From: Bryobacteraceae bacterium
Lineage (GTDB): Bacteria > Acidobacteriota > Terriglobia > Bryobacterales > Bryobacteraceae
NCBI GenBank assembly: GCA_025056455.1
Contig: JANWVY010000005.1
Coordinates: 1 to 64,000, forward strand
Direction: 5' to 3'
Length of the DNA stretch: 64,000 nucleotides
Shown here: piece by piece, positions 1,305 through 58,884 of the stretch
How positions within the stretch are numbered: position 1 is the stretch's first letter
Layout of the letters: every line of letters starts with the position of its first letter
The notes under the pieces: generated by a model
Database searches by the model: none
What the model saw: only the letters and a program-made list of their open reading frames with translations
Told to the model about the DNA's origin: nothing
Translations under genes and position numbers: made by a program

Positions 1305-2821
1305 GATTCATCTCCCAAGGGCAGATGGATGTCGACGAGCTCGATGGCGTCTAGAAGAGGCGTTCGGGTACCAAGTAACTCCAAATTCGAAAGACTATCC
1401 GGCAGTTTCAGGTGCTCGTCCACGGTCTGCCAGGCGTGTAAAGCCGTCTGAACAGCCTTGGGATCCTGCCGGACCAAAGAGGCCAACGCTTTGACCTTGT
1501 TTCGCCGCCGCCCCCAGGCCGGGCCCCGCAGCCCGGTTTCACCTGTTCCTAGAAGCGTCTCTGAAAGCCAGCACCAAGTCTCGAGTTCGTTTGGCGTGCC
1601 CTTCAAACGGTAAGGCCGACATGTCAGTAACAAGGAGTTGGCTCGGTACAGACGGTCCCTAAAATCCGAAACCGGCTCTCCGGAGCGGACGCCCCCGATA
1701 TGCCAGTCCAGCCAGCTCCCCGCATCGTTTCGCTTGCGCCGAACAGCCTTCGCGTGCGCGCAAAGTTTTTCCGCAAGTTCGTATGCCCGTGCAAACGGGT
1801 AGTGGGCACGCACAATCGCTACCCCCGCGCAGGCGCTCATTTGACCCAGATGAGGGCAGGACTTGCGGCTTAACTCCCGCAGGGCCGCGGCGGCAAGGTC
1901 GAGACCAATCCGGCCATCGCACAAGAACGTGAGGTCATCCCCACCAAGCAGAACAGGTCGCAGAGGCAGTTTGTTCGCCTGCAAGCGAAAGTTCAATCGT
2001 GGAATTGAACCTTGTAGGTGCTCATCTTGAATTGCTGCTAGCACCCGTTTCACTAGGTATTGCCAAACACCACGAAAGGTCTCGTCGATCCAGCTTGACC
2101 ACTCTACATACTGAACTAGGACATCCTTGTCATCGACATTGTCCCTCACGCACTGCGACAACCACTGGTAGATTTTTTCTCCCAGGCCGTTCAGATCCAC
2201 ATGGACCACTGCCAGAAGACTCGTATCCCCCCAACTGCGCCCCAGATCGTCGATTTCTGCGGGAAACTCCCACTCTGGCTCAAGACTAGAAATCTCTTTC
2301 CAACGGCTTTCCGCATTTCTCCGTACTTCCTCGCTCCTCCACGTCTCCACCACTCTCGAGATTGGCGCAGAGTCTAAAGCGTCAACATACGCCGCTGGAA
2401 GCCCGGTGATCTCGCAGGCGGCAGTAACTCCGAGACCGAGCGACCCAGCATGCGGCTTCCGTTCCAGCTTCTTCCGAGCCAACAGGATTTGTAGGTCCTG
2501 GAGGGACTCCGAGATCCGTTTTTGTTCTCCTAGACAGTGCGTCACAACCAGATCGATGCCCGGCGCCTGGTCCAGAACGCGGCGAGTGTAGGCGCCTGCA
2601 AATAATTTCGCTTCCTTTAGCGAATCAAATGCCAGAAGGGCCGATCCGCCGCCCGCATGCAGCACCTGTTGACGCCATGGCTGAAGCGCCCCCTCTCGCC
2701 AGGTTGCCCAGTGAACGAGCCAGGAAGCCGAGACGACGTCACGGAGTCGGTTCGACGCAAAAACATAGTTTTGGATACCAAGTAGGTCGATGCCCGTCAA
2801 AACCCTCATTTCAAGGCTCAA
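1301..2821 (-). CDS. cas10: Cas10-family protein, short form without HD domain, GGDD motif intact
   Basis: This 506-residue protein is the large subunit of the type III effector and the likely cyclic oligoadenylate synthase. The N-terminus goes straight into the palm-like segment (IQNYVFASNRLRDVVSAS, residues 16-33), with no HD nuclease domain before it. A VHVDLNGLG segment (206-214) matches the metal-binding strand of the Cas10 palm, and GGDD at 293-296 is the cyclase motif. A helix with PFARAYELAEKLCAHAK (about 329-345) is also typical. The zinc ribbon is not apparent; only one Cys remains near residue 136. At 506 residues it is short for Cas10. It sits 6 bp after the CARF gene and overlaps the RAMP gene by 4 bp. 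An intact GGDD next to a CARF protein implies cOA signalling; single-stranded DNase activity is not expected without HD. Subtype is uncertain because the operon is cut. Confidence 0.85.
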   Translation of the reverse strand: MSLEMRVLTGIDLLGIQNYVFASNRLRDVVSASWLVHWATWREGALQPWRQQVLHAGGGSALLAFDSLKEAKLFAGAYTRRVLDQAPGIDLVVTHCLGEQKRISESLQDLQILLARKKLERKPHAGSLGLGVTAACEITGLPAAYVDALDSAPISRVVETWRSEEVRRNAESRWKEISSLEPEWEFPAEIDDLGRSWGDTSLLAVVHVDLNGLGEKIYQWLSQCVRDNVDDKDVLVQYVEWSSWIDETFRGVWQYLVKRVLAAIQDEHLQGSIPRLNFRLQANKLPLRPVLLGGDDLTFLCDGRIGLDLAAAALRELSRKSCPHLGQMSACAGVAIVRAHYPFARAYELAEKLCAHAKAVRRKRNDAGSWLDWHIGGVRSGEPVSDFRDRLYRANSLLLTCRPYRLKGTPNELETWCWLSETLLGTGETGLRGPAWGRRRNKVKALASLVRQDPKAVQTALHAWQTVDEHLKLPDSLSNLELLGTRTPLLDAIELVDIHLPLGDES

Positions 2822-2827
2822 AATGCG

Positions 2828-3991
2828 CTAGGACTTCAACCACTCCTCAAGCTTGGTAAGGGTCTTTGGACGTTCACAACCTGTCCATTCCCGCAGGCAG
2901 GCCAAGCCGAAAACCTCGGGCTTGTTTGGTGCTTCCCAAAGACTCTGGACGTCCTGTTTCAGCTGGTCGATATGGGTGCTTTGACTATTTCCTTCTCCTT
3001 TGTCGGTTAAACAAACTAGAGCCGAGCGCGCCAAGTCGCCTCCCAGTTGCCGAGATCGCATAGCAACCTCAAACAGTTTGGATTTGCACAGATTAAGAGC
3101 ACTGTCGGTTGTACAAGAGATCACATAAAGGCGGTTATGGCGGACCAGCGCGACGTCGATTTCAAATTGACGACCCCCAGGAAGCTTCCATTGGATCCCT
3201 TGACATGGGCTTTCATCAACCGCCTCTCTGACCCAAGCTGCAACGGCTACTTCGAGCCACCCGCCACGGAGAAACTTTTCCCAGAGCTCAGCTTCGAGCT
3301 TACTCCAGCTTTCTTCCGGCACCTGGGTCACCGAAAGCTTTAAACCTTGCGGGCGCCAAATGTTTTCGGGGGGCCACTTCTTCAAATGGTTACCCACTTG
3401 GAGCAAAGACTCCACTAGCCTGGCGTCCGTAGCGACTTTCTTCGCAATCTCGAACGCATCCGGCTCTTGCGGCAACTTGCCCGCAGGCTCTGGCCGTGTA
3501 GTTTGAGCGGAGCCAGAGGAAGACTTCCTCTCGCAGCCATGGAGGCGCCCGATCAAGTCGAGCGTGAGCCCAAGATCTTGGTCTTTCAGGCAGGTCCCAG
3601 TGCCGTCGTCGAAAACCAAGGACTGCGAGCCATCGTTGAGGTAAGACGCGTTCTCGGCCAGGCCACCTTTCTCCCGGAAAGCTAGTAACGCGTGGGCCGC
3701 CATGATTTTTGTCCCACCGGTATAGTTCAGGTGGACGGACTCAGGGCCTTCTTCGTCCATAACCGAAGTCACGATATTGGCGATCGCGTTGGCGTTCGAG
3801 GAACTAGGTAGGGATGCCAGCTGAATCTCTGTCCCGTTGTGGAGGATGCTCGCCAGCCGTTCTGCGACTTGGTGGGTGGCGTCTGTATGGATAAGAACGA
3901 TTTTTTTGGTGGGTTTCAGGACCCGCGCTACTAGGTAATTCGGTAAGGGATTGGACCCGACTAGCAAAATCAACGTCTTCGGTTGTCCCAT
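2828..3991 (-). CDS. CARF-domain effector of the Card1/Can2 (DUF1887) family, nuclease motif degenerate
   Basis: This 387-residue protein heads the type III operon. The N-terminal Rossmann-like CARF domain (about 1-150) contains the family signature NYTGGTKIM (89-97), which binds cyclic oligoadenylate in DUF1887 proteins. The C-terminal part (about 225-345) matches the PD-(D/E)xK nuclease of Card1/Can2: GGWLEVAVAAWV (243-254), then FEIDV with D279, then the strand ending in LYVISCTTD. Where active members read ECKT, this protein reads SCTT (S292, C293, T294, T295), so the catalytic Glu and Lys are absent while the Asp is kept. A linker rich in S/T/P joins the domains. An AAAGG ribosome site precedes the ATG. 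The expected role is a cOA-responsive accessory effector or sensor; nuclease activity is doubtful by motif, although an SCTT subgroup may exist that I cannot check. Confidence 0.85.
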   Translation of the reverse strand: MGQPKTLILLVGSNPLPNYLVARVLKPTKKIVLIHTDATHQVAERLASILHNGTEIQLASLPSSSNANAIANIVTSVMDEEGPESVHLNYTGGTKIMAAHALLAFREKGGLAENASYLNDGSQSLVFDDGTGTCLKDQDLGLTLDLIGRLHGCERKSSSGSAQTTRPEPAGKLPQEPDAFEIAKKVATDARLVESLLQVGNHLKKWPPENIWRPQGLKLSVTQVPEESWSKLEAELWEKFLRGGWLEVAVAAWVREAVDESPCQGIQWKLPGGRQFEIDVALVRHNRLYVISCTTDSALNLCKSKLFEVAMRSRQLGGDLARSALVCLTDKGEGNSQSTHIDQLKQDVQSLWEAPNKPEVFGLACLREWTGCERPKTLTKLEEWLKS

Positions 3992-28835: not shown

Positions 28836-31800
28836 ATGGACGACCGGACTCTTCGTAGCCAGGCCCTTTTTGAAACGCTTGCCGAGCGCATTCTGGTGCT
28901 GGACGGCGCCATGGGCACCATGTTGCAACAAGCGAATTTAACCGCGGCGGATTTCGGCGGAGCGGCGCTAGAAGGCTGCAACGAAAATCTCGTTCTGACC
29001 CGGCCCGACGTCGTCCTTGAGATTCACAAAAGGTATTTTGCTGCGGGCGCCGATATGGTGGAAACCAACACTTTCGGCGGTACGAGCATTGTTCTGGCCG
29101 AGTATGGCCTGGAGAGTAAAGCCTACCAGATCAACTACGTCGCCGCACAGCTAGCGCGGCAGGCGGCCGCCGAATTCTCCCGGCCGGGCCGGCTGCGATT
29201 TGTGGCCGGCTCGATGGGACCGACAACCAAAGCCATCACAGTAACCGGCGGGGTCACCTTCGCCGAGCTCAAAGAGGCGTTTTATCAACAAGCCAAAGGC
29301 CTCGTGGAAGGCGGTGCGGATGTTTTGCTGGTGGAAACCTGCCAGGACACCCGCAACGTAAAAGCCGCTTTGCTCGCCATCCAGCGTTTGGCGCGGGAGC
29401 GAAACGAGCGGCTGTTGGTGATGGTGTCCGGAACCATTGAGCCCATGGGGACGATGCTGGCTGGGCAAACCGCGGACGCTCTTTGCGCCTCGATCTCCCA
29501 TGCTGATTTGCTATCAATCGGTCTGAATTGCGCCACTGGGCCGGAGTTTATGACGGATCACATCCGCACCCTCCACGAAATGGCTCAAACGCGCATTTCC
29601 TGCTATCCCAATGCGGGCCTGCCGGATGAGGAAGGCCGTTATCTGGAAACCCCGCAATCGCTCGCCGCGCAATTAGAAAAATTCGCCGACCACGGCTGGC
29701 TGAATATTGTGGGCGGCTGCTGTGGCACGACGCCAGATCACATCGCGCACATCGCTCAGATGGTTGAGGGCAAGAAGCCGCGCGCCAATCGCCCGCCTTC
29801 ACACCGATCTTATTACGCGGGCGTCGAGCTCGTAGAAGCTGAGCCCAGCAACCGCCCGCTCATTGTCGGCGAGCGCACCAACGTAATCGGGTCGCGGCTG
29901 TTCAAAGAGCTCGTGGCGCAGAACAAGTGGGAAGAGGCAACGGATATCGCCCGGCGTCAGGTGCGCAACGGAGCCCATATCGTAGATGTCTGCCTGCAAT
30001 CGAGCGAACGCGATGAACTTCAGGATATCCCTCCTTTCTATGAGCATCTGATCCGGAAGATCAAAGCGCCGATTATGATCGACACCACGGATCCAGCAGC
30101 CGTGGAACTGGCGCTCACCTACTGCCAAGGCAAAAGCATTATTAATTCCATCAATCTGGAAGACGGCGAGGAGAAGTTTGAAAAAGTTTGTCCGCTAGCC
30201 CGCGCCTACGGGGCGGCCATCGTTGTCGGCACGATTGATGAGGACCCGGTTCAAGCGCAGGCTTTCACTCGGGAACGCAAGCTGGCCATCGCCCAGCGCT
30301 CGGTCCGGCTGTTGACGGAGAAGTACGGCATTCCTGCTGAGGACATCATCATCGATCCACTGGTGTTTCCTTGCGCCACGGGGGATGAGAACTACATTGG
30401 GGGCGCCGTTGAAACCATCGAAGCCATCCGCCTGATCAAAGAAGCGATCCCTCACGTCAAGACCATTTTGGGGATTTCGAACATATCCTTTGGCTTGCCG
30501 CCCGCCGCGCGCGAGATCGTCAATTCCGTCTTTTTGTACTATTGCACCAAGGCGGGTTTGGATCTGGCCATTGTGAACGCCGAAAAGCTCGAGCGTTTCG
30601 CCTCCATCCCGATTGAAGAGCGGCGCCTGGCCGAGCATTTATTGTTTAACACGCCACCCGAGGAGGTGCCCGGCGATCACCCTGATGCCGAACTCCTCAA
30701 AACAGCGCCCGAAGACTGGCGCGAGCAAACGCGGGAACAAAAGATCGCCATCAATCAATTTCACATTGCCGCCATTACAGAGCACTTCCGCAAAGCGGCG
30801 GCCAAGGCGCGAAAAAAAGCAGAGGATCTTCCGCTCGACCAGCGCCTGGCAAACTACATCATTGAAGGGGTCAAAGATGGGCTCGTTGCTGATCTCGACC
30901 GCAAGCTCGCCGAAGGAGCCACTCCGCTAGACATCATCAACGGGCCGCTCATGGCGGGTATGACGGAGGTCGGCCGGCTGTTCAACAATAACGAACTGAT
31001 TGTCGCGGAAGTGCTGCAATCGGCCGAGGCCATGAAGGCCGCAGTGAGCTACCTCCAGCGATTCATGGAAAAGGCGGATACGAGCACGCGGGGCAAGATC
31101 ATTCTGGCCACCGTCAAGGGCGACGTCCATGATATTGGCAAGAATCTCGTCGAGATCATCCTGAGCAATAACGGCTATGAGGTGGTGAATCTGGGCATCA
31201 AGGTTCCACCCGAGGATTTGATCCGAGCCTATCGCGAGCACAAGCCGGATGCCATCGGCTTGTCGGGGTTGCTCGTTAAAAGCGCGCAGCAAATGGTGGT
31301 AACGGGCAATGACCTAAAAGAAGCCGGAATTCAGGTTCCGCTGTTGGTTGGCGGCGCAGCGCTTTCAGAGAAATTTACGGTTACGAAGATTGCTCCGGCT
31401 TACTGCGCGCCCACGTTTTACGCCAAAGATGCCATGACGGGGCTGCGGCTGCTCAATGAAATCATGGACCCGGCGACACGGGAGGAGATGTTGAGGGCCC
31501 ACACTTGGAGTGGCGGCAACGTGGATATTCAGGCACCCGTCCACCGCGCTGCGCCGGCGTCGGAGAAGCGGAGCCCGAAGGTCCGCGTCGATCTTCCGAT
31601 TCCTGCCGCGCCGTACTTGGACCGCAAAGTGCGTGTGGTGCCGAACCTCGCTGAAATTTGGAGCTACATCAACCCCTACATGCTCTACGGCCGTCATTTG
31701 GGCTACAAGGGGAATTTTGAAAAGAATCTGCATGATCGCGAACCGAAAGCGTTGGAGCTCTTTCACCAGGTAGAAGAGGTGAAGAAGCGGGCGGCGGAGT

Positions 31801-32411
31801 TTATGAAGGTGCGCGCCGTTTGGCGTTTTTTTGAAGCCGAGCGCGAGGGGAACTCCATTCACTTATTCGAGCCAGGAGCTTCGTCACCGGTGCATACTTT
31901 CCGCTTCGGACGCCAGCCCAAAGAAGACGGACTGTGCTTGAGCGACTACATCTTAGATCCGGAGGATTCGCGGCGGGATCACCTGGCGTTGTTTGTGGTC
32001 ACGGCGGGAGAAGGGGTCCGCGAGCATGCGGAAGCAGCCAAGGCGGCGGGGGAATATTTTTACGCGCACGCCTTACAGGCGCTTGCTATCGAGACGGCGG
32101 AAGCCTGCGCGGAGTGGCTTCATCGCCGCATTCGTGAGGACTGGGGCTTTCCCGACCCTCCGACCATGACCATGCAGGAACGGTTCACTTCACGCTACCG
32201 GGGCAAGCGCTACAGTTTTGGCTATCCGGCCTGCCCCAATTTGGACGATCAGGCGGGCATCTGGAAGCTGCTCAACCCGGAAGAAATTGGAGTGCGGCTA
32301 ACCGAGGGCATGATGATGGAACCGGAGGCTAGCGTAAGCGCCATGGTGTTTCATCATCCGGATTGCACTTACTTTACGGCGAGTGAAGCCACAGCCGAGG
32401 TCGTGGCGTAG
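28836..32411 (+). CDS. metH: Cobalamin-dependent methionine synthase, full length
   Basis: This 1191-residue protein has all four MetH modules. The homocysteine domain (about 10-320) shows the zinc-binding GGCCGTTPDH. The methyltetrahydrofolate pterin-binding domain (about 340-620) contains GERTNVIGSRLF. The B12 cap and Rossmann domains (about 660-890) carry GDVHDIGKNLVE, whose His coordinates cobalt. The reactivation domain (about 930-1190) contains YSFGYPACPNLDDQ. It transfers a methyl group from methyl-THF to homocysteine in the cytosol. The ATG is at 28836; a TTG two codons earlier is in frame. I looked for and did not see a SAM or cobalamin riboswitch in the 94-bp upstream gap. Confidence 0.95.
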   Translation: MDDRTLRSQALFETLAERILVLDGAMGTMLQQANLTAADFGGAALEGCNENLVLTRPDVVLEIHKRYFAAGADMVETNTFGGTSIVLAEYGLESKAYQINYVAAQLARQAAAEFSRPGRLRFVAGSMGPTTKAITVTGGVTFAELKEAFYQQAKGLVEGGADVLLVETCQDTRNVKAALLAIQRLARERNERLLVMVSGTIEPMGTMLAGQTADALCASISHADLLSIGLNCATGPEFMTDHIRTLHEMAQTRISCYPNAGLPDEEGRYLETPQSLAAQLEKFADHGWLNIVGGCCGTTPDHIAHIAQMVEGKKPRANRPPSHRSYYAGVELVEAEPSNRPLIVGERTNVIGSRLFKELVAQNKWEEATDIARRQVRNGAHIVDVCLQSSERDELQDIPPFYEHLIRKIKAPIMIDTTDPAAVELALTYCQGKSIINSINLEDGEEKFEKVCPLARAYGAAIVVGTIDEDPVQAQAFTRERKLAIAQRSVRLLTEKYGIPAEDIIIDPLVFPCATGDENYIGGAVETIEAIRLIKEAIPHVKTILGISNISFGLPPAAREIVNSVFLYYCTKAGLDLAIVNAEKLERFASIPIEERRLAEHLLFNTPPEEVPGDHPDAELLKTAPEDWREQTREQKIAINQFHIAAITEHFRKAAAKARKKAEDLPLDQRLANYIIEGVKDGLVADLDRKLAEGATPLDIINGPLMAGMTEVGRLFNNNELIVAEVLQSAEAMKAAVSYLQRFMEKADTSTRGKIILATVKGDVHDIGKNLVEIILSNNGYEVVNLGIKVPPEDLIRAYREHKPDAIGLSGLLVKSAQQMVVTGNDLKEAGIQVPLLVGGAALSEKFTVTKIAPAYCAPTFYAKDAMTGLRLLNEIMDPATREEMLRAHTWSGGNVDIQAPVHRAAPASEKRSPKVRVDLPIPAAPYLDRKVRVVPNLAEIWSYINPYMLYGRHLGYKGNFEKNLHDREPKALELFHQVEEVKKRAAEFMKVRAVWRFFEAEREGNSIHLFEPGASSPVHTFRFGRQPKEDGLCLSDYILDPEDSRRDHLALFVVTAGEGVREHAEAAKAAGEYFYAHALQALAIETAEACAEWLHRRIREDWGFPDPPTMTMQERFTSRYRGKRYSFGYPACPNLDDQAGIWKLLNPEEIGVRLTEGMMMEPEASVSAMVFHHPDCTYFTASEATAEVVA

Positions 32412-49717: not shown

Positions 49718-50185
49718 ATGGAAAAACGTTCCGAAAAGGCGAGGGCTTTAGTAGAGTCGCGCGGTTTTGGCGTTCTGGCCACACTCTCCAAGCGCCTGCC
49801 GGGTTACCCGTTCGCCTCAGTTATGCCCTACGCTTGCGATTCCAAAGGGCAACCCATCTTTCTATTAAGCCGGCTTGCCGTGCACACCAAAAACTTATTG
49901 GAGAATCCGCGGGCGAGCCTCTTGGTTTATGAACCTGCGGCGGAAACTGACCCGCTCGGCGCCGCACGCCTCAATCTCATGGGGGAAGTCACACAGATCG
50001 AACCAGGCGGGAGCAGTCAGGCGCGCGCACTCTACTTACAAAAACACCCGGATGCGGAACCGTGGCTGAATTTCGGCGACTTTGGCCTCTACCAAATGCG
50101 CGTCGATGACGTGTACTATATTGGCGGCTTCGGGGAGATGGGCTGGGTCTCCAAGAACGATTACCTCGCAGAATCGAACGCTTGA
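49718..50185 (+). CDS. Pyridoxamine 5'-phosphate oxidase-family protein (HugZ-like)
   Basis: This 155-residue split-barrel flavin/heme protein begins EKARALVESRGFGVLATLSK, which is the family's opening. It contains IFLLSRLAVHTKNLLENPRASL and ends with a YYIGGFGEMGWV segment typical of HugZ/PNPOx-like proteins. It could bind FMN, F420 or heme; true PNP oxidase activity is not implied. Its 3' end overlaps the convergent small gene at 50161 by 25 bp. Confidence 0.8.
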   Translation: MEKRSEKARALVESRGFGVLATLSKRLPGYPFASVMPYACDSKGQPIFLLSRLAVHTKNLLENPRASLLVYEPAAETDPLGAARLNLMGEVTQIEPGGSSQARALYLQKHPDAEPWLNFGDFGLYQMRVDDVYYIGGFGEMGWVSKNDYLAESNA

Positions 50186-50427
50186 ATCAGCTCCTGGAGA
50201 ACGGCTTGGACGACTTCTTCCGCTGTCCCCTCGCGCTGGCGTTTTTCGCTCCAGTGCCACTGTTCCAGGTAGGTGTCGGTTCCAGCCAGCCCCTCCTTCA
50301 TCGCAACACGATCAATCTCCTGTTGAAAACGCTCGGGGAGAGGCACGGAAAGTGGTCGTTTGCCTGGAGCTTGAACTTTGATCTGAGCAGGAATGTGTTT
50401 CCAGTAGAGCACCTGATAGGTGGTCAC
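50161..50427 (-). CDS. Small conserved protein, 'virulence factor' family-like (PF13769-like), 88 aa
   Basis: This protein starts MTTYQVLYWKHIPAQIKVQ and continues LSVPLPERFQQEIDRVAM, with a WHWSEKRQREG segment near residue 58. This is the pattern I recall for the short family annotated 'virulence factor', with no known function. It is the last gene of the corrinoid operon, overlapping the pterin methyltransferase stop by 4 bp. The aromatic and charged sequence lacks any metal motif. Its co-location with a corrinoid system is suggestive only. Confidence 0.6.
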   Translation of the reverse strand: MTTYQVLYWKHIPAQIKVQAPGKRPLSVPLPERFQQEIDRVAMKEGLAGTDTYLEQWHWSEKRQREGTAEEVVQAVLQELIQAFDSAR

Positions 50428-51449
50428 GCCAGCTCTCCTCGTCGATAGGCGCGTAGATAGTTTTTGCAGTTGCGGTCGCGGCCGAGCAACATCTCGGCGG
50501 CAAGTTGGTAGGAACGGCTGGCCCGGTCAGCAAGGAACAGGTTACGGAAGTTATTCGCCACGGGATCTACAATCCCGCTATCTGCGCCAGCCTCCACCGC
50601 CAGATGAATAAAGACTTCGTTGACGAGCTTGCGCAAGGGAATCCCAAAGGAGATATTGCTGAATCCACCGCTAATGTGAATCTCTGGTCCGTATTTCTCT
50701 CGCAGGGCGCGGATTGCTTCGAGACAGTGAAGGCCGTAGTTACTGTCGACAGCAATGGGAAACACGAGCGGATCAATAAAAATCTGGTTTTTGGGAATGC
50801 CTTTCGCGAGGGCGGCCTCGACCATGCGGGATGCATTGGCGACGCGCTCGGCCGCATCCTGGGGCATGCCCCGCTTACCGGCCGCAGTCACCATTACAGG
50901 AAGGCCCCGGGCGGCGGCAAGATCCAGGGCTTCCAGCCTCTCTAGCGAAGCTGAGTTGAGCATGGGAGGACCGCAGGGGGAGCGCGAGGCTTCAATCCCA
51001 GCGCGGATGATCTCTAAATTCGACGAATCGACGGCCACTGGCACCGAGGAACGCCCTTCAACCATCTGCACAAGCCAGCGCATGGCCTCGATTTGCTCCT
51101 CAAGCTTCAGCGAAATCTCATCGATGTTCAGATCCAAATAGTCGGCACCAGCTTCCACCTGGCGTTGGATCAGAGCATGCAGATAACGCAGCCCCTCGGG
51201 ATCGCCCGTCATGGCCAGTCGCACGGCGATGAGCACATGCTTCACGCGACCTTCCTGATAATCCTGGCGCGCCTTGATGAAATCGGGAATGATGAGGTGG
51301 CGTTGCTGGCCCTGCTCATCCACATAACGAACGCCCTCTTCGCCTCCGGGCAGCTTGTCGACGAGTTTTCCTTGGAGCAGGACGACGCGTGTAGTGTGAA
51401 TGTTTTCGCCGATAATCACGAATTCACGATCTAGGCCGGCTGGCTTCAT
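50424..51449 (-). CDS. Pterin-binding corrinoid methyltransferase (methyltransferase II)
   Basis: This 341-residue protein has the TIM-barrel pterin-binding motifs shared with MetH, AcsE and MtvA: IGENIHTTR (13-21), DLNIDE, VDSSN, DPLVFP and GFSNISFGIP. It lacks any other MetH domain. It would move the methyl group from the carrier corrinoid to tetrahydrofolate, or the reverse. Its ATG overlaps the activator stop by 4 bp. Together with the UroD-fold protein, carrier and activator it completes a four-part O-demethylase-like set. The direction is inferred from the analogous acetogen systems. Confidence 0.85.
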   Translation of the reverse strand: MKPAGLDREFVIIGENIHTTRVVLLQGKLVDKLPGGEEGVRYVDEQGQQRHLIIPDFIKARQDYQEGRVKHVLIAVRLAMTGDPEGLRYLHALIQRQVEAGADYLDLNIDEISLKLEEQIEAMRWLVQMVEGRSSVPVAVDSSNLEIIRAGIEASRSPCGPPMLNSASLERLEALDLAAARGLPVMVTAAGKRGMPQDAAERVANASRMVEAALAKGIPKNQIFIDPLVFPIAVDSNYGLHCLEAIRALREKYGPEIHISGGFSNISFGIPLRKLVNEVFIHLAVEAGADSGIVDPVANNFRNLFLADRASRSYQLAAEMLLGRDRNCKNYLRAYRRGELA

Positions 51450-53047
51450 TGCGGCGTTCCTTTCGGGATGGACATTGGCTTGAACTGGCAGGCTTCAACA
51501 AAAATCTCAAAGAAATCGGGGGTCGTTTCAAGCTCCACATGTTCGATGCGCTTTAGGATGCGCTCGACGGAGGCCCGCTTAGATTGAGAAAGCAACATTT
51601 GACGGGCGCCCTCCAGAGCCCCGTTGCCGATTTTGACCACGCGTTGCTCGGGCACTGGGGCTAGGAAGCCGATTTCGACGGCGTTGGCCACCTGGATAGA
51701 ATTCGCAAAGCCACCGGCCAGATAAAGTTTGTCGATCTGTGAAGGATCGACGCCCAGCGCGCGGAGCAGAATGAACTGGCCGCAATAATTCGCCGCCTTC
51801 GCCTGGGCAAGGTGGCTGGCGTCTTCCCGCGAAAACGTGATGCCGTATTCGGGCGCGATCGGGATCTCGTAAGAACGATTCAGGAAGACTCCCTTGGGCG
51901 ACATCAGCCCGTTCCGGCGCAGTTCGGCCAGAAGGTCAATGAGGCCTGACCCGCAGATTCCTTGTGGAGCTACGTCCCCGATGACCTGGTAACGCCAGCC
52001 CTGCGAAGTCCACCAGATGCGTTCAATCGCGCCTTCAGCACCCGGCATTCCGAACCGAATGCCACGGCCTTCAAAAGCAGGACCTGCGGGACAAGACGCC
52101 GCAAGAAAACGCCCTCGATGTGCGAGAACGACTTCCGTGTTCGTTCCAACGTCAACAAGAAGGAAGGTTTCCTCGCGTTTCTCAATGTCGATGGCCAGAA
52201 GGTCCGCAGTCGTGTCGGCACCGACGTGGCTGGCCACTAGCGGAGGGCCAAAGACACGCGCCTTTGGATGGGCAAGCACACCGAGGCGGTGGGCGAATTC
52301 CGTAAGCGCTGTCGTCTGACGCAAGCCGAGCCGGTACTCCTGCTCAATTTTCGACTGGTAGGGCCGCTGGCCGATGGGTTGTATATCAACGCCGAAAAAT
52401 AGATCGCGCATGGTGGAATTGCCCGCGACGATCACCTCGTAAATTTGATGGCGGTCGGCCCCGTGCGCCTGGCAAAAGGCTTTAATTTCTGCGTTGAGTG
52501 CGTTGACCGTGACCTTGCGTAACCGCCCATGATGCGGCCCCGCATCGTAACTGATACGGGTCATAACATCGCTGCCGCCAAAGCGTTGCGGATTTTCGAT
52601 CCCCACCTGGTGAACCGATTCGCCAGTTTCTAGATTCACGAAATCAAGGACAATCGTTGTCGTGCCCAAGTCTACTGCAATGCCGAACATGGCGCCGCGG
52701 AAAACATCCACGGGTTGGTCGCCATAAAACACCGTATCTCCCTGGCGTCTGACTAGGGGGTCCAAACAAACCGGCGCTTGGCGGCATGTACTGGTGAGGA
52801 TTTTAGGCCGCCGCCGGACCGGAGCAAAAGTTAGGTTTTGCTTGGCAGCGCCGTCCAGCAGGCGAGCTTGGCAGGCAAGCCGGTAAGGATCCTTCAGGAA
52901 GCTTTCTGCTGGAGTGCGGTCACAGAGCTGGTCCAAGCCCGCTTGAACCTCCACGATGCACTCGTTGCAAAAACCTTGGCGGTGACACGAGCTAGGAATT
53001 TCGATGGAGCTCGAGTCGGCGAGTTCGAAAAGCGTCAGACTACCCAT
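51446..53047 (-). CDS. Corrinoid activation protein (RACE-like, 2Fe-2S + ASKHA, DUF4445)
   Basis: This 533-residue protein has an N-terminal [2Fe-2S] site: C21, C27, C30 and C59. A linker is followed by a C-terminal ASKHA ATPase-like domain with GIAVDLGTTT and GICGSGLIDLLAE, and the LAGGFANSIQV segment near the end. This is the layout of RACE proteins, which use ATP to reduce Co(II) corrinoids to Co(I) after accidental oxidation. It sits between the small Cys-rich gene (13-bp overlap) and the pterin methyltransferase. Its presence strongly supports a corrinoid methyltransferase system nearby. Confidence 0.88.
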   Translation of the reverse strand: MGSLTLFELADSSSIEIPSSCHRQGFCNECIVEVQAGLDQLCDRTPAESFLKDPYRLACQARLLDGAAKQNLTFAPVRRRPKILTSTCRQAPVCLDPLVRRQGDTVFYGDQPVDVFRGAMFGIAVDLGTTTIVLDFVNLETGESVHQVGIENPQRFGGSDVMTRISYDAGPHHGRLRKVTVNALNAEIKAFCQAHGADRHQIYEVIVAGNSTMRDLFFGVDIQPIGQRPYQSKIEQEYRLGLRQTTALTEFAHRLGVLAHPKARVFGPPLVASHVGADTTADLLAIDIEKREETFLLVDVGTNTEVVLAHRGRFLAASCPAGPAFEGRGIRFGMPGAEGAIERIWWTSQGWRYQVIGDVAPQGICGSGLIDLLAELRRNGLMSPKGVFLNRSYEIPIAPEYGITFSREDASHLAQAKAANYCGQFILLRALGVDPSQIDKLYLAGGFANSIQVANAVEIGFLAPVPEQRVVKIGNGALEGARQMLLSQSKRASVERILKRIEHVELETTPDFFEIFVEACQFKPMSIPKGTPQ

Positions 53048-53274
53048 GCGCCCCGGTAGTTGAGTTTGTCGTCACCAACGCATCGAGGCTTGCTCTCAGG
53101 CGGCGTGGGTTTACGTTGATTACGGCAGCCAAAGGATGCAGTGCACTGGTTGTACCGGTTTTTGTAAGGGCAGCGGCCTTGCGACTGCTGGTCCGCGTGC
53201 CGCGCGATGCCTTCCAGGATGCGATAAAGTTCGTCGCGGCGTTTTCGAAACTCGTTCGGGTCGATCTTTTCCAT
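53035..53274 (-). CDS. Small cysteine-rich protein of the corrinoid operon, 79 aa, unrecognised
   Basis: The start at MEKIDPNEFRKRRDELY is preferred to a longer frame overlapping the carrier gene. A charged N-terminal helix (1-30) is followed by four cysteines, C35, C44, C50 and C65, spaced C-x8-C-x5-C-x14-C in a Tyr/Arg/Asn-rich region. They could bind zinc or an iron-sulfur cluster. It overlaps the activator gene by 13 bp and lies just after the B12 carrier gene. I do not recognise the family; partner or chaperone roles are possible. Confidence 0.7.
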   Translation of the reverse strand: MEKIDPNEFRKRRDELYRILEGIARHADQQSQGRCPYKNRYNQCTASFGCRNQRKPTPPESKPRCVGDDKLNYRGAWVV

Positions 53275-53294
53275 CAGGTTTTCCTTAAGTCGGC

Positions 53295-54044
53295 CTAGGC
53301 AGAAAGGCCAAGAAGCCTTTTGGCGAGAGCAACGCATGCGACGGCGTCTTTGCCGTAACCGTCCGCACCCATGTCATCAGCAAAATCTTGCGTTACGGGC
53401 GCGCCCCCGACCATAATCTTCACACTGTCGCGCAGGTCAGCGTCAATAAAAGCCTCAATTGTTTTTCCCATGTTGGGCATGGTTGTGGTCAACAGGGCGG
53501 ACATGCCAACTAACGGGGCGCCATGCTGTTCGACCGCGTCAATGAATTTGTCGGGAGGCGTATCCACTCCGAGATCGATAACCTCGAAACCCGCGCCGCG
53601 CAGGAGCATAATGCAGAGGTTTTTCCCAATGTCGTGCAGATCGCCCTTAACCGTTCCCATAATCACCTTTCCGACGGGTTCGATCCCGGAAGCCGAGAGA
53701 ATCGGCTCGAGGTGAGCCATGCCGGCCTTCATGGCGCGTGCGCAGGAAAGCACCTCAGGAACAAAAATGAAATTTTCGCGGAATTTGATCCCAACGAGCG
53801 CCATGCCAGCAATTAAGCCATAATCCATGACCTCGAGCGCTCCCACGCCCTCGGCTAGAGCTTGGCGGGTAAGATTACTCACCGTTTCGTTGTCGCCATC
53901 AATCAAGGCGGCGGCGATGGCCTGCATGCGAAGGCTGGCGCTAGCGAATAAATCAATCAAACGCTGGCGCTCTTCCGGCTTGAGAATGAATTCCTCAATT
54001 TCTTGGCGGATGAAGTCATTCTGAATGTCACTCAATTCGGCCAT
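53295..54044 (-). CDS. Cobalamin-binding methyl carrier (corrinoid protein)
   Basis: This 249-residue protein has an N-terminal helical B12 cap (about 30-115) and a Rossmann B12-binding domain (about 120-245). The cobalt-ligand motif is GDLHDIG (134-140, with H137), followed by MSALLTT and VGGAPV. It is the size and layout of MtaC/MtvC-type shuttle proteins that hold the methyl group between two methyltransferases. It overlaps the UroD-fold gene by 17 bp, so the pair is coupled. Confidence 0.9.
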   Translation of the reverse strand: MAELSDIQNDFIRQEIEEFILKPEERQRLIDLFASASLRMQAIAAALIDGDNETVSNLTRQALAEGVGALEVMDYGLIAGMALVGIKFRENFIFVPEVLSCARAMKAGMAHLEPILSASGIEPVGKVIMGTVKGDLHDIGKNLCIMLLRGAGFEVIDLGVDTPPDKFIDAVEQHGAPLVGMSALLTTTMPNMGKTIEAFIDADLRDSVKIMVGGAPVTQDFADDMGADGYGKDAVACVALAKRLLGLSA

Positions 54045-55095
54045 GGTGGGAATTCCTCAGCGTGCGCTCACGGTGCCAGTCTTTAACGGCTTTGGGAATT
54101 TCTTTGAGGTTCTCGATGGTGGTTTGAAGCGGGATGGCGCATTCGGGACCAATCAGTTGGACGCCGGCTTCGAGATTCGCATAGACTTCTCGGCGTACGT
54201 CTTCTGGTGATTTGGCAAAAAGCGTTTCGGGATTATTGATGTTGCCAACGAGAGCAATTTTTCCGTTCACCGCAGCCATGGCCTCGGCCGGCGAGTTTTT
54301 GGAATCGAAATGGAATGCAGCCATGCCCGTTTCGGCTATGTATGGCATGCGGTCGACCGTGCGCCCACAGATATGAAGAATCAACGGTGCAGGAATGGTC
54401 TCGGCGAATTCTTGATGGAGATCCTTCAGGTAGCGGGCGTAGTATTCGGCGCTCACCAAGTCACCCGTCGCATGGTCAGGAAGGGTCAGCGCATCGGCTC
54501 CAGCCTCAAGTTGGGCCAGGCCGAATTCAATCGTCACCCTTTTGAGCTGGTCCAGACAGTATTTCGTATCGCTCGGCGAATCAAGCGACATCAGGAGAAA
54601 ATTTTCGACGCCAAAAGTGTGATAGCCAAGCGACCACGGGCCCATGGTCTTGCCGATAATGGCCACCTCCTCACCAAACTCGCGCCGGAGGATTCGAATG
54701 GCCTTGAGAACACACTGCGCATCCGGATGCTCGATCCAGTCCTCCGGGATGTGAATATCCGAAGGCTTTAGGTAAATGGGCTCGCGCATCCGCACGGTCG
54801 GCCAGTTGTCCTTCTGCTCCCATTGAATTTTACAGCCCAGTGCGGAGGATTCCTGAATAATCGAAAACACTGGCATGATGGAATCGAATCCAAGCTCGGT
54901 ATAGCCTGTCGCTGCGAGCCTGGCCATAAATTCCGGCTGGCGATTAGCGTCGGGGAAGGGCGCATCGGCAAGATCCATCAATTCCACCGTAGCTATGGAA
55001 GTCGGATTGCAGACCGGGGTGCGGTCCACTGGCTGGCGACGCAAGGCCGCTAGCACCCGCTGTCTCGACGTCATGCTCGGGATCTGTTCCACCAT
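54028..55095 (-). CDS. Uroporphyrinogen-decarboxylase-fold methyltransferase (MtaA/MtvB/CmuA-type)
   Basis: This 355-residue protein has the UroD TIM barrel of methylcobamide methyltransferases. The zinc site is legible: H241 and C243 in LILHICGRT, and C319 in GPECAIP, the HxC...C pattern used to activate thiols or methyl donors. The opening MTSRQRVLAALRRQPVDRTP is typical. In this setting it should demethylate a substrate such as a methoxylated aromatic and load the adjacent carrier protein. The methyl donor cannot be read from sequence. True hemE is unlikely because of the zinc triad and the neighbours. Confidence 0.85.
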   Translation of the reverse strand: MVEQIPSMTSRQRVLAALRRQPVDRTPVCNPTSIATVELMDLADAPFPDANRQPEFMARLAATGYTELGFDSIMPVFSIIQESSALGCKIQWEQKDNWPTVRMREPIYLKPSDIHIPEDWIEHPDAQCVLKAIRILRREFGEEVAIIGKTMGPWSLGYHTFGVENFLLMSLDSPSDTKYCLDQLKRVTIEFGLAQLEAGADALTLPDHATGDLVSAEYYARYLKDLHQEFAETIPAPLILHICGRTVDRMPYIAETGMAAFHFDSKNSPAEAMAAVNGKIALVGNINNPETLFAKSPEDVRREVYANLEAGVQLIGPECAIPLQTTIENLKEIPKAVKDWHRERTLRNSHHGRIE

Positions 55096-55104
55096 GGACG
55101 GTGC

Positions 55105-55710
55105 TCACTTTTGCGCGCTGGGAGCCACAAGCACGCCCTTCGACGCGGCTGCCTCCTCTTCGCGGATCACTTGTCTCACATTCAGGGCGCGTGGCAGCAG
55201 CAGGCCCACCAGCTCATCATGGCCGGAACCGCAAGGAAAGGCAAACTCCCCTCGCCCAGTATCCGTGGAGATGGCGCCGGCTAGCTTGCGGAAACCGTGA
55301 ACGATGGCGTCAAGCCGGGACGGGTCAGCTCCTTGAAGACCGTAGCGACCCGCTCCGAAAGCCAAGACGGTAATCTCCGCGCCCGATTTTTTGTCAGTGA
55401 CGGCGAGCGGGCGCGGCGAGAGCGGGCTTGCCGTAGGGAGTTTGCTTACTTCCAAAAAAAGCCGCCGTGCCGCAGCGGAGTGAGGATCGCCGCATGGGAA
55501 GCAAAGCCAACCGTTCGAACTCCTCATGCCGCCGAGCAACGCCATGGCCTCGGTCAGAAAGTTTATGCGTTGCGCCGCTTCTGGCCGCCGGGAATACGTA
55601 TGAATGCGGTATGCATTTTGGTCGAAATACAAACCGAGCGAGATGTCGTAACAGTGGACATCCATGGAGATGAGCTCCAGGCGACGGCCAAGATCTTGGG
55701 TGAGAGCCAT
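55105..55710 (-). CDS. Unrecognised protein with duplicated FPCGxxH module, 201 aa
   Basis: This is the first gene of the corrinoid operon. The ATG at 55710 (MALTQDLGRR) is preferred to a TTG at 55740, which lies in the operator. The sequence appears to be two copies of an 85-90 residue unit. Each copy ends in the motif FPCG-x-x-H: FPCGDPHSAAARRLF (71-85) and FPCGSGHDELVGLLL (158-172), 87 residues apart. Each is preceded by a helix with a similar pattern. A Cys/His pair in each half suggests metal or thiol chemistry. There is no signal or membrane segment. The TTG start would instead give 211 residues. Family not recognised. Confidence 0.65.
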   Translation of the reverse strand: MALTQDLGRRLELISMDVHCYDISLGLYFDQNAYRIHTYSRRPEAAQRINFLTEAMALLGGMRSSNGWLCFPCGDPHSAAARRLFLEVSKLPTASPLSPRPLAVTDKKSGAEITVLAFGAGRYGLQGADPSRLDAIVHGFRKLAGAISTDTGRGEFAFPCGSGHDELVGLLLPRALNVRQVIREEEAAASKGVLVAPSAQK

Positions 55711-55728: not shown

Positions 55729-55741
55729 CTTGTCTGACAAG
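55729..55741. promoter_or_regulatory. FadR-type operator CTTGTCTGACAAG between regulator and corrinoid operon
   Basis: This 13-bp sequence is a perfect palindrome around one central T. It fits the FadR-subfamily consensus TNGTNNNACNA (here TTGTCTGACAA). It lies in the divergent region, 21 bp from the regulator ATG and 18 bp from the first operon gene, where binding would block both. The consensus is known from the family; binding here is inferred. Confidence 0.6.
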
Positions 55742-55762: not shown

Positions 55763-56479
55763 ATGATTGACGGAATCAAGCCGCTGGCAAGAAGATCGCT
55801 CACCGATGAAATCGTGGACCAGCTGACGTCTCTGATTGCGCGTGGCGTTCTGAAGCCCGGGACGAGAATGCCGTCTGAGAAGGTGCTCAGCGAGCAGTTT
55901 GGCGTTGGCCGGACGTCTGTGCGCGAGGCCCTCAGATCGCTTGCGGCCATGGGCTTGATTGAGTCGCAGGCAGGCGAGGGCCATTTTGTTTCGGCAAACG
56001 TTGCGGCAGCCGTGGACCGCGCTCTGCAAGTGGGCATACTGCTGGGAGGTATTCGGATCGAAGAGCTGATCGAGGCGAGGCTGTTATTGGAACCCGAAGC
56101 GGCAGCCCTAGCGGCGCGACGCGCTACAGACGAACAGCTGGCAGCCATCGAGCGCCAGCAAAACTCAATGGAGCAAGCTGGAAGCGATTACGGGCGATAT
56201 CTCGAGGCGGACCTGCAATTTCATTTAACGATTGCAGCAGCCTCGCAAAACTCCATTTTGGCCAATCTTTTGGCCAGCATCCGCGGCCACCTTCAGAGCT
56301 GGATTCGTCAGGCCTTAAGCCAGGGCAAGCGCAAGCGCGCGGAAAGCTCGTTGATCGAACATCGCCGCATCCTGGAAGCAATTCGCAGGAAAAAGGAGCG
56401 AGCCGCTCGCCAGGCGATGAGCCACCATATTCTTTCAAGCAGCGAAGAGATTCAAAAAGTCGTCCGTCAGGCCTCTTAA
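55763..56479 (+). CDS. GntR/FadR-family transcriptional regulator (FCD domain)
   Basis: This 238-residue protein has an N-terminal winged helix (about 10-75) with VLKPGTRMPSEKVLSEQFGVGRTSVREALRSL, here cited as GTRMPSEKVLSEQFGV and RTSVREALRSL. The C-terminal FCD domain (about 90-230) contains DLQFHLTIA, SLIEHRRILEAI and MSHHIL, the Asp/His pattern that holds a metal for ligand sensing. The ATG at 55763 is used; the frame opens earlier. It is divergent from the corrinoid operon with a fitting operator between them, so it probably controls that operon and itself, with a small acid or sugar acid as ligand. Confidence 0.85.
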   Translation: MIDGIKPLARRSLTDEIVDQLTSLIARGVLKPGTRMPSEKVLSEQFGVGRTSVREALRSLAAMGLIESQAGEGHFVSANVAAAVDRALQVGILLGGIRIEELIEARLLLEPEAAALAARRATDEQLAAIERQQNSMEQAGSDYGRYLEADLQFHLTIAAASQNSILANLLASIRGHLQSWIRQALSQGKRKRAESSLIEHRRILEAIRRKKERAARQAMSHHILSSSEEIQKVVRQAS

Positions 56480-56501: not shown

Positions 56502-57347
56502 TTACTCCACGACAGCGCAAGGATTAGAAAGCTCGCCAAGGCCTTGAATGGTGATGGAGCAGACATCGCCAGGTTGCAGGGCGGCATCCTCTCTCACAAT
56601 GATTCCAGTGCCTGTGCAAAGCACTGAACCCGAGGGAACAGGATTCGAGCGATACAGGTATTCAATCAGCGTCTCGAATTTCCGATGTAGCTTGGCAGTC
56701 GACGTTCCGCCCGAAAACACGACGCGATCGCCCCGCCGGATCGTACAAGTGATCTCCAGATTGTAGGGATCGGGAATTTCATCTGGTGTGACGATCACGG
56801 GTCCGAGGGCACAGCAGGCACTATAGATCTTGGATTGGGGTAAGTAGAGCGGGTTTTCCCGTTCGATATCCCAGGCCGAGACGTCGTTGGCAATGGTAAA
56901 GCCCAGAATGATGCCTTTTGGGCCTAAGACCAGAGCGAGCTCTGGTTCGGGAGCCGTGAATTTGGAATCCGCGCGGATGCCGATGGGCTTGTCTGGCCCC
57001 ACGCAAACTCGTGCTGTACCCTTCAAGAAAATTTCTGGCCGGGCCTCGCGGTAGACATAGGCATAAAAGCCTTCTCGCGTTCCATGTTCGGAGTCGCGGA
57101 AGCTAGCACTCGTTTCGTAGGTGCAGCCGCAGGCCCACACTTCGCGCGGGTGAAGAGGAATGATGGGAGGGATCGCCTCGCCGTGCGAGGCAGCGCGGCG
57201 GGCTGCAAGTTCTGCCAGAGGAATCCCCTCTTTCTCAGAACGCTCAATGAGCCCCTGGAGAGTATAGCCCGGAATCGGGCGGGCGAGGCCGTTTTCAAAC
57301 ACGGCAGCGGTGACTTCGTGGTTCCAACGGATTTGTCCGAGTTTCAT
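56502..57347 (-). CDS. Fumarylacetoacetase-fold dehydratase, KdaD/XylX-like
   Basis: This 281-residue protein has the FAH-superfamily metal-binding pattern. EVWACGCTYETS opens the core (about 65-76). TAPEPELALVLG carries Glu ligands, and AWDIERENPLYLPQSK an Asp and Lys. It closely resembles 2-keto-3-deoxy-pentonate dehydratases of the Weimberg route, though other 2-keto acid hydrolases share the fold. The next upstream gene is an aldehyde dehydrogenase, which would take the product. It is the last gene of a long minus-strand run and converges on the FadR gene. Confidence 0.75.
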   Translation of the reverse strand: MKLGQIRWNHEVTAAVFENGLARPIPGYTLQGLIERSEKEGIPLAELAARRAASHGEAIPPIIPLHPREVWACGCTYETSASFRDSEHGTREGFYAYVYREARPEIFLKGTARVCVGPDKPIGIRADSKFTAPEPELALVLGPKGIILGFTIANDVSAWDIERENPLYLPQSKIYSACCALGPVIVTPDEIPDPYNLEITCTIRRGDRVVFSGGTSTAKLHRKFETLIEYLYRSNPVPSGSVLCTGTGIIVREDAALQPGDVCSITIQGLGELSNPCAVVE

Positions 57348-57438
57348 GGGGTTCGACTTTCTCTCTCTCTGCAGCTTGGGGCGAGCAAGCCCTGAATCAA
57401 ACCTCAGGACAAGCCAGCGCTGCTTTCCCAGTCGCTGG

Positions 57439-58884
57439 TTAGTACTTCAGGTAAACCGTCTTGTAGTCGCTATAAAATTCCAACGCGGCCGGGCCTTGCT
57501 CCTTAGGCCCAAAGCTCGATTCCTTGGAGCCGCCAAAGGGAAGCTGATATTCGACGCCGGCACTCGGAAGGTTTACCGTGAGTAAGCCGGCCTCCATTCG
57601 CTGCACATATTCAAACACGCGTGAGATATTCGTGGTTTGAAGCGAAGCAGAAAGTCCAAAGGGGATATTGTTTGCGATGCGCATGGCGTCATCAAAATCC
57701 CGTGCCCGCATCACGGCCAGTATCGGTCCGAAAATTTCTTCCTGCGCGATGGTCATCTGCTCCGTAACGTCGGCGAAAATCGTGGGGGCGATGAAGTAGC
57801 CTTTCTCGTACCCTTCGCCGGTCAGCCGGTAGCCGCCACAAAGAGGCTCACCGGCCTCCTGGCGGCCAATTTCGATGTACTTCAAATCGGTTTCGAGCTG
57901 CGCTTCATCAATGGCTGGCCCGATATCCACACCAGGCTCGAGACCGTTGCCGACTTTGAGCCGCTTCGTACGCTCGACGAGCGCCGATAGGAATTCGTCG
58001 TAAATAGAGTCTTCCACAATGGCCCGGCTCGTGGCAGTGCATTTTTGTCCGGTCGAGAAAAACGCGCCGTTGACAACATTTTCGACGGCGGAGTGGAAAT
58101 CGGCGTCGGCGAGCACGATGGTCGGGTTCTTGCCGCCCATTTCCATCTGAATGCGGAGACGGCGTTTCGAGGCCTCTGTATAGAGCCAGTTGCCGACGGC
58201 GCAAGAGCCGGTAAAGGAGATGGCGCGAAGTTCTGGTGCTTCTAACATGGCCTTGCCGAGCTCACCGCCGGGGCCGGCAACGTAGTTGACCACGCCCTTG
58301 GGGATGCCCGCCTCATGACAGGCTTCCACAATCCGCCAGGAGGAAAGCGGGGAAGCGGAAGCAGGCTTGAGGACGACGGTGTTCCCGCAGATCAAAGCTG
58401 GGGCCATTTTCCAGGCTGGAATTGCGATGGGAAAATTCCAAGGGGTAATTAGGCCCACCACTCCCACCGGCTTGCGGATGGCAAACATATGCACCCGGTC
58501 GCGCTCGGAGGGTACAAGCATTCCCGGCATGCGTGACCCTTCCCCAGCGAAATAGCGAAAGATGTTGATGGCGCGGCGGACTTCGCCCTTGGCCTCGGGC
58601 AGTGTTTTTCCCTCCTCGCGCGTCATCTCTTCTCCTAACTGGTTGAACCGGCTCTCCAAGATTTCGGCGACTTTGAACAATAAGGCGCCACGGGCCGGAG
58701 CGGGCATGGCCGACCAAGCTGGCAGCGCATTCTGAGCCGCCTCACAAGCCTCGCGCATGTCGGCAAAGCTGCCCTTGGCAAACAAGCCGACTACTTCGTC
58801 GGTGTTAGCTGGATTGCGATTTTCGAAGGTAGCTAGCGGCGTGCGCCACTCGCCATTTATGTAGTTGGGATAGGTATTCGCCAT
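57439..58884 (-). CDS. NAD(P)-dependent aldehyde dehydrogenase, alpha-ketoglutarate-semialdehyde-dehydrogenase-like
   Basis: This 481-residue ALDH has the nucleotide loop FTGSCAVG, the catalytic Cys in GQKCTATSR, and the catalytic Glu in EMGGKNPT. Its neighbour, a KdaD-like dehydratase, points to alpha-ketoglutaric semialdehyde as the substrate, which would end in 2-oxoglutarate. The ending LEFYSDYKTVYLKY is typical of this ALDH branch. It starts 12 bp after the LemA stop and sits in the same run. Substrate is inferred, not seen. Confidence 0.8.
   Translation of the reverse strand: MANTYPNYINGEWRTPLATFENRNPANTDEVVGLFAKGSFADMREACEAAQNALPAWSAMPAPARGALLFKVAEILESRFNQLGEEMTREEGKTLPEAKGEVRRAINIFRYFAGEGSRMPGMLVPSERDRVHMFAIRKPVGVVGLITPWNFPIAIPAWKMAPALICGNTVVLKPASASPLSSWRIVEACHEAGIPKGVVNYVAGPGGELGKAMLEAPELRAISFTGSCAVGNWLYTEASKRRLRIQMEMGGKNPTIVLADADFHSAVENVVNGAFFSTGQKCTATSRAIVEDSIYDEFLSALVERTKRLKVGNGLEPGVDIGPAIDEAQLETDLKYIEIGRQEAGEPLCGGYRLTGEGYEKGYFIAPTIFADVTEQMTIAQEEIFGPILAVMRARDFDDAMRIANNIPFGLSASLQTTNISRVFEYVQRMEAGLLTVNLPSAGVEYQLPFGGSKESSFGPKEQGPAALEFYSDYKTVYLKY

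Follow-up and report, generated by a model that had tools for sequence, protein, structure and literature searches.

The corrinoid operon and its first gene

The window analysed here is a stretch of 64,000 nucleotides from a Bryobacteraceae bacterium. Its minus strand carries a tightly packed operon that encodes, in order, a protein referred to below as FPCG (after its paired motifs), a UroD-type methyltransferase (UroD), a B12-binding protein, a small Cys4 protein, a RACo-type activator, a pterin-binding methyltransferase and a PF13769 protein. In a preliminary description, an unrecognised two-repeat protein was placed at 55105-55710 as the first gene of a corrinoid operon. The coordinates are correct and the gene does open the operon, with a divergent GntR gene adjoining it; the coding strand, which was left unstated, is the minus strand, and the plus-strand reading of 55105-55710 is interrupted by a stop. 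The translation likewise bears out the motif positions given for the protein (residues 71-77 and 158-164) and their spacing of 87 residues. The features of the locus are as follows.

50161-50427, minus: small PF13769 protein, closing the operon (5.6e-20)
50424-51449, minus: methyl-H4folate:corrinoid methyltransferase (Pfam Pterin_bind 2.2e-26)
51446-53047, minus: RACo-type corrinoid activator with 2Fe-2S domain (RACo_C_ter 4.5e-68, Raco_middle 8.5e-40, Fer2 1.6e-06)
53035-53274, minus: small Cys4 protein, unnamed (start chosen at 53274; searches used 53038-53280)
53295-54044, minus: corrinoid (B12-binding) protein (Pfam B12-binding 4e-29, B12-binding_2 2.1e-19)
54028-55095, minus: UroD-fold methyltransferase of the MtaA/CmuA type, H241, C243 and C319 kept (Pfam, NCBIfam, alignment)
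55105-55710, minus: FPCG gene, 201 aa, ATG at 55710, stop ending at 55105; two repeats, approximately residues 1-97 and 98-201
55108-55140, minus: conserved C-terminal tail KGVLVAPSAQK, residues 191-201 (conservation and low pLDDT)
55219-55239, minus: second motif FPCGSGH, residues 158-164, with C160 and H164 (translation and family alignment)
55480-55500, minus: first motif FPCGDPH, residues 71-77, with C73 and H77 (translation and family alignment)
55729-55741, no strand: palindrome CTTGTCTGACAAG between the divergent genes, probable GntR operator
55763-56479, plus: GntR/FCD-family regulator, divergent, start codon chosen here (Pfam GntR 2.2e-20, FCD 7.9e-31)

The activator contains the 2Fe-2S, RACo middle and C-terminal (ASKHA) domains that define a RACo-type protein, and its residues C21, C27, C30 and C59 are invariant in 51/51 sequences. 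The best NCBIfam match of the corrinoid protein is MtgC, below the cut-off, and that of the pterin-binding methyltransferase to NF005719 (2.2e-60) is also below its cut-off. The Cys4 protein has no Pfam match over the cut-off and no match in the PDB; its four cysteines (C42, C51, C57 and C72) are invariant in 54/54 rows and in some genomes it is fused to the N terminus of the activator, of which it is possibly an extra iron-sulfur or zinc module. For the last protein of the operon, the PF13769 name 'virulence factor' is probably misleading.

A duplicated protein family

FPCG had been described as unrecognised, and this has held: by sequence it has no relative in Pfam, NCBIfam or the PDB. The window protein reached best E values of 0.12 in Pfam (a B-box model) and 0.25 in PHROGs, and no relative of it was found in the PDB by sequence or among viral contigs. 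Over 74 members of the family, the best values were 0.014 in Pfam and 0.013 in NCBIfam, each from a single member, and the family profile reached 0.44 at best against the PDB. Literature searches of titles and abstract openings listed no match recognisable as describing this operon or the FPCG protein. FPCG is a member of a two-repeat protein family that is new to the libraries searched.

A single-sequence search found homologues (49-59% identity) in 10 of 200 genomes of the bacterial family, own genome included, and a scan of 84,980 species genomes with the ten-member alignment gave 76 loci. By their submitters' titles, from which the phylum labels are taken, these belong to at least eight phyla and include Acidobacteria, Gemmatimonadota, Poribacteria, Latescibacterota, Proteobacteria, Chloroflexota, Actinomycetota, SAR324, Aminicenantes and others. 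The FPCG profile matches 68/84 genomes in the phylum of the Poribacteria-titled genome G495 (which carries locus L050), 3/301 genomes in the phylum of the Dehalococcoidia-titled G494, that genome included, and 3/297 sampled genomes in the window's own phylum, again counting its own. Several candidates were dropped as relatives: L012-L014 (E about 0.006, internal stops), L002 of the window's own genome (E 1.04, internal stop) and L102 (E 0.0013 over 59 positions, a short partial match). A locus with a run of N (L085) and two contig-end fragments (L098, L099) were left out of one alignment (A2), and a further alignment (A3) took 60 of 73 homologues.

The paired motifs had led the preliminary description to suggest an internal duplication. 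On its own the motif pair is weak evidence for this, because a loosely repeated 7-mer (5/7 identical) occurs in 487/2000 shuffles of the protein; two or more C-x3-H motifs occur in 41/20000. FPCG is nonetheless a true internal duplication: HHalign, given one profile for each half made from 74 homologues, aligned the two with a probability of 97.8 (E 1.2e-12; 95.0 and 9.9e-09 in an alternative setting), against a best probability of 2.9 in 46 control comparisons with pieces of other operon proteins and 0.2 with a reversed half.

The AlphaFold model of the whole protein has a pLDDT of 91.1 and a pTM of 0.86, and the first repeat, which was the one folded and searched singly, has a pLDDT of 94.3. 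Each half is predicted to run strands-helix-strand(s)-helix, with its motif between a strand and the next helix. At E <= 0.001, Foldseek matched the whole model to nothing in the PDB or BFVD, and the first repeat to nothing in the PDB. VIA-align ranked highest the tandem BMC protein 3io0 for the whole protein (Z 6.0, rmsd 4.3 Å, 77 aligned) and the HIT protein 2oik for the first half (Z 5.2, 3.7 Å, 89 aligned); all FPCG rows have Z <= 6.0, values below 8 may reflect merely a common arrangement, and absence from these rows excludes no family. A histidine triad is a feature expected of HIT-fold proteins, whereas the FPCG family keeps C-x3-H.

Nine residues (L13, M16, D17, S40, R48, G60, G139, N177 and G192) are invariant in 74/74 members and, judged by conservation, probably matter more than the Cys/His site discussed below. 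The last of these lies in the C-terminal tail, where P197 (63/74), S198 (61/74) and Q200 (62/74) are also conserved. The mean pLDDT of residues 191-200 is 53 and the tail (191-201) is probably a flexible segment in the predicted structure; being conserved yet predicted to be flexible, it suggests a docking segment.

The UroD-type partner and the Cys/His site

The protein encoded next to FPCG scores above the curated cut-offs of TIGR01463 (243.6 vs 235.4 bits) and NF004889 (263.4 vs 244), and lies far under the equivalog cut-offs for MtaA (NF040654, 237.6 vs 400 bits) and MtbA. Its nearest solved relative is the methylcobalamin:coenzyme M methyltransferase 4ay7 (1.3e-50), with whose HxC...C residues its HICG and late Cys align. 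In MtaA/CmuA methyltransferases these residues are zinc ligands. With partner rows that cover 60% or less of the window protein left out, H241 is kept in 69/70, C243 in 68/70 and C319 in 68/70.

Conservation of FPCG beside UroD and RACo genes in other genomes, which the preliminary description had proposed as a check, was found: a UroD gene follows that of FPCG, in the same orientation, in 71 of the 76 loci, or 71 of the 72 with enough sequence. In four of the five loci without it the contig ends just past FPCG, and the sole true orphan is L078, with no UroD on its contig. The distance can be larger, at 2.7 kb in L091 and 1.4 kb in L094. Of 33 loci taken from the scans of the phyla of G495 and G494, 32 have UroD in the covered flank; 13 of these loci repeat the 76-locus set and 20 are new, 19 of them with UroD.

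The two genes also remain together where the rest of the operon does not. Five Poribacteria loci (L039, L050, L060, L065 and L066), each with at least 1.2 kb covered beyond UroD, have no corrinoid or activator gene after the pair. The Cys4 gene lies elsewhere in four of these five genomes, in long frames that fit an activator fusion, and in G495 a B12-binding match lies about 4 kb from it on the same contig, with FPCG on another contig. Among 30 Poribacteria-type loci a match to the B12 protein beyond UroD is absent in 18 and present in 6, counted where at least 300 bases lie beyond UroD, the remaining 6 being too short or without UroD; one of the 18 (L117) is the same as locus L092, where the corrinoid gene lies about 0.7 kb further on. 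L061, whose contig ends about 0.2 kb past UroD, was not counted as a split locus. Because the pair stands apart from the other operon genes in some Poribacteria, FPCG is tied first to UroD. Three genomes of the bacterial family have a UroD at 63-68% identity without FPCG or the operon, and such enzymes can therefore exist without it. FPCG and the Cys4 gene co-occur in the same 10 of 200 genomes of that family; most loci were found through FPCG, and an operon without it was looked for by these family-wide counts only. Stand-alone UroD-type proteins (63-68% identity to that of the window) were seen in L103, L104 and L105, with the corrinoid operon genes not nearby. In L103 the gene lies at 2690-3748 and adjoins a frame of 785 aa, which presumably resembles a glycyl radical enzyme.

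In the nine other loci of the bacterial family the order GntR-FPCG-UroD is kept, with the regulator divergent from FPCG in 9/9, and the B12 protein, Cys4 protein and activator then follow wherever the contig reaches; L017 ends within UroD, and L018 is without a pterin-binding gene between activator and PF13769 protein. The latter belongs regularly to the operon, with a matching frame in 30 loci, and in most of the divergent Chloroflexota-type loci it lies upstream of FPCG. A FAH-type hydrolase and an aldehyde dehydrogenase lie behind the regulator (56502-58884, minus strand); neither has a match (E <= 1e-4) in the 76 loci, and they were not used as a clue to the substrate for this reason.

From its sequence and position, CTTGTCTGACAAG is the probable GntR operator. 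The TGTCNGACA core lies upstream of FPCG in the window and in 16 of 72 loci; the remaining 56 gave no match there. Given how often the core occurs across these loci, about 0.011 copies would be expected per 430-bp region. The place of FPCG as first gene, adjoining regulator and operator, could fit a protein that senses or controls operon activity and takes no part in methyl transfer, and so could its faster evolution (48-57% identity to the window protein, vs 78-83% for the enzyme). We consider this highly improbable: the operon already has its own GntR regulator, whose operator is conserved, FPCG stays with UroD in loci that have no GntR match in the covered flank, and there is no significant fold match of any kind, hence no indication of a DNA-binding fold.

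Within the paired motifs, C-x3-H alone is well kept across the family, and F, P and G vary. C73, H77 and C160 are each kept in 67/74 aligned members and H164 in 69/74. When 35 further sequences were added to the 74 members (109), 14 identical ones were removed and the remaining 95 were compared on the core, both C-x3-H pairs were complete in 86, both were incomplete in 9 and in none was one pair complete alone. The preliminary description had proposed that the pairs might form a joint site with pseudo-two-fold symmetry, and they are indeed complete or incomplete together in 95/95 distinct sequences, as a single shared site predicts. This all-or-none pattern is suggestive of one site built from both pairs. 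On the tree of 74 rows the co-loss has happened twice independently, which is not enough to test for significance: the tree contains seven of the nine site-less members, in two clades with two changes per motif. H164 is retained in three of the nine. On this pattern of conservation, the two pairs probably combine into a single Cys2His2 metal site, likely with zinc, and the replacement of the site by whole lineages points to a structural rather than a catalytic role.

The site-less members are L095, L096, L097, L110, L111, L049, L054, L069 and L070; the seven on the tree represent one Chloroflexota and one Acidobacteriota clade, and two more come from the Chloroflexota group. The titles of some suggest marine sources, and one may speculate about metal sparing.

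Where the sequence extends far enough, loci with site-less members still encode UroD, corrinoid protein, Cys4 protein and activator, and their UroD keeps H241, C243 and C319 in 6/6 members with the region covered. The system can thus do without the Cys/His site. These lineages bear directly on the idea that FPCG is a metallochaperone or zinc-insertion factor, which loads the zinc site of UroD through its own Cys/His site. The gene does adjoin that of a zinc-type enzyme, and paired C-x3-H motifs could carry a transferable metal, but UroD retains all three HxC...C residues in the six covered members that have lost the site, which would then not be needed to load it; we regard such a role as very unlikely.

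The same lineages speak against the corrinoid-related role that had been suggested for the motifs. The proposal in its wider form is that FPCG helps to handle or reactivate the corrinoid, as DUF1638 may do in split methionine synthases, or itself binds corrinoid. It draws on the position of FPCG at the head of a corrinoid operon, and accessory proteins of unexplained role have been described in corrinoid operons in the sections covered of one study (PMC5764234). Against it, DUF1638 is matched by 0/74 FPCG members (Pfam, E <= 0.1), the site has been lost in two lineages whose loci retain the operon genes, and where the genes separate FPCG stays with UroD and not with the corrinoid and activator genes. 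We judge corrinoid handling to be unlikely, as it also is that the Cys/His site holds a corrinoid.

Proposed role and related systems

We consider the chances to be even that FPCG, with a structural Cys2His2 site, serves the adjacent UroD-type methyltransferase as a dedicated accessory or specificity subunit. Judging from the families of the operon proteins, the UroD-type enzyme would take a methyl group from a donor and pass it to the corrinoid protein, from which the pterin-binding methyltransferase would move it to H4folate for oxidation or methionine synthesis, and the RACo-type activator would re-reduce the cobalt. FPCG would bind the methyltransferase, perhaps via its conserved, flexible tail, and may help it to fold, gate it or select its substrate, with the metal site, likely zinc, tying the two repeats together. 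The donor may be a sugar ether, a methyl-sulfur compound or a betaine. A more far-reaching proposal, which we put forward as doubtful, is that FPCG is a new kind of corrinoid-methyltransferase subunit whose fold the PDB does not yet contain, and that it determines which substrates a zinc-type UroD enzyme accepts or how well this enzyme tolerates oxygen.

Alternatively, the operon as a whole, FPCG included, could encode a split methionine synthase whose UroD protein transfers the methyl group to a thiol. Frame clusters that are MetF-like (26 loci) and homocysteine S-methyltransferase-like (19 loci) occur near FPCG relatives, one member of each having been tested against Pfam, and the second of these favours such a reading. 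A near-full-length MetH was not found in 3 of 13 genomes searched and a fourth, 73% complete, has partial MetH matches only. A corrinoid protein common to glycine betaine demethylation and methionine synthesis has been reported in R. pomeroyi, in the part of the source covered (PMC12478193). Full-length MetH is present, however, in eight others of the 13 genomes and in that of the window, where it lies within the window itself (28881-32378, plus strand), so that the operon is not simply this genome's methionine synthase; no operon protein of the window matched a homocysteine methyltransferase family. We find this explanation decidedly unlikely.

A conserved FPCG protein tied to one methyltransferase, as in the accessory-subunit reading, suggests that a class of corrinoid methyl transfer needs a component absent from the searched libraries. 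Poribacteria are uncultured bacteria known mainly from sponges. If the reading is true, FPCG marks a core, unexplained one-carbon trait of this group (68/84 genomes). On the more far-reaching proposal, FPCG would define an undescribed pathway of methyl-group use that nearly all Poribacteria have and that occurs sporadically in Latescibacterota, Gemmatimonadota, Acidobacteriota, Chloroflexota and Proteobacteria. The FPCG-UroD pair is a two-gene unit small enough for direct expression and testing.

Among known systems, the chloromethane and O-demethylase systems CdmBCA, OdmB and VdmB have the same logic of methyltransferase I, corrinoid protein, methyltransferase II and activator, and the sections covered of their description contain no FPCG-like gene; there, CdmB is reported to need no zinc and to group near the O-demethylases (PMC13222342). 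The type 1 mlp clusters, as set out in the sections covered of PMC10418091, encode at least two and often three UroD-type proteins, the three clusters first examined are without an H4folate methyltransferase, and the genera that carry them are described as obligate anaerobes. The window operon, in contrast, combines a single UroD protein with an H4folate methyltransferase, FPCG and the Cys4 protein. The split methionine synthase of P. inhibens, which includes a RamA-like protein and DUF1638, shares with the window separate B12-binding and pterin-binding proteins, a ferredoxin-DUF4445 activator and an accessory protein that is unexplained in the sections covered (PMC5764234). The window differs from it in having a UroD protein instead of the homocysteine methyltransferase and an FPCG protein that does not match DUF1638. 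With the soluble coenzyme M methyltransferases and CmuA (TIGR01463, 4ay7), the window UroD shares its fold and the aligned HxC...C residues; it differs in having an H4folate methyltransferase and a RACo-type activator as neighbours, and in being accompanied by FPCG in all 10 genomes of the bacterial family that have the Cys4 gene. The operon is a known type in a new form, with a new protein family, FPCG.
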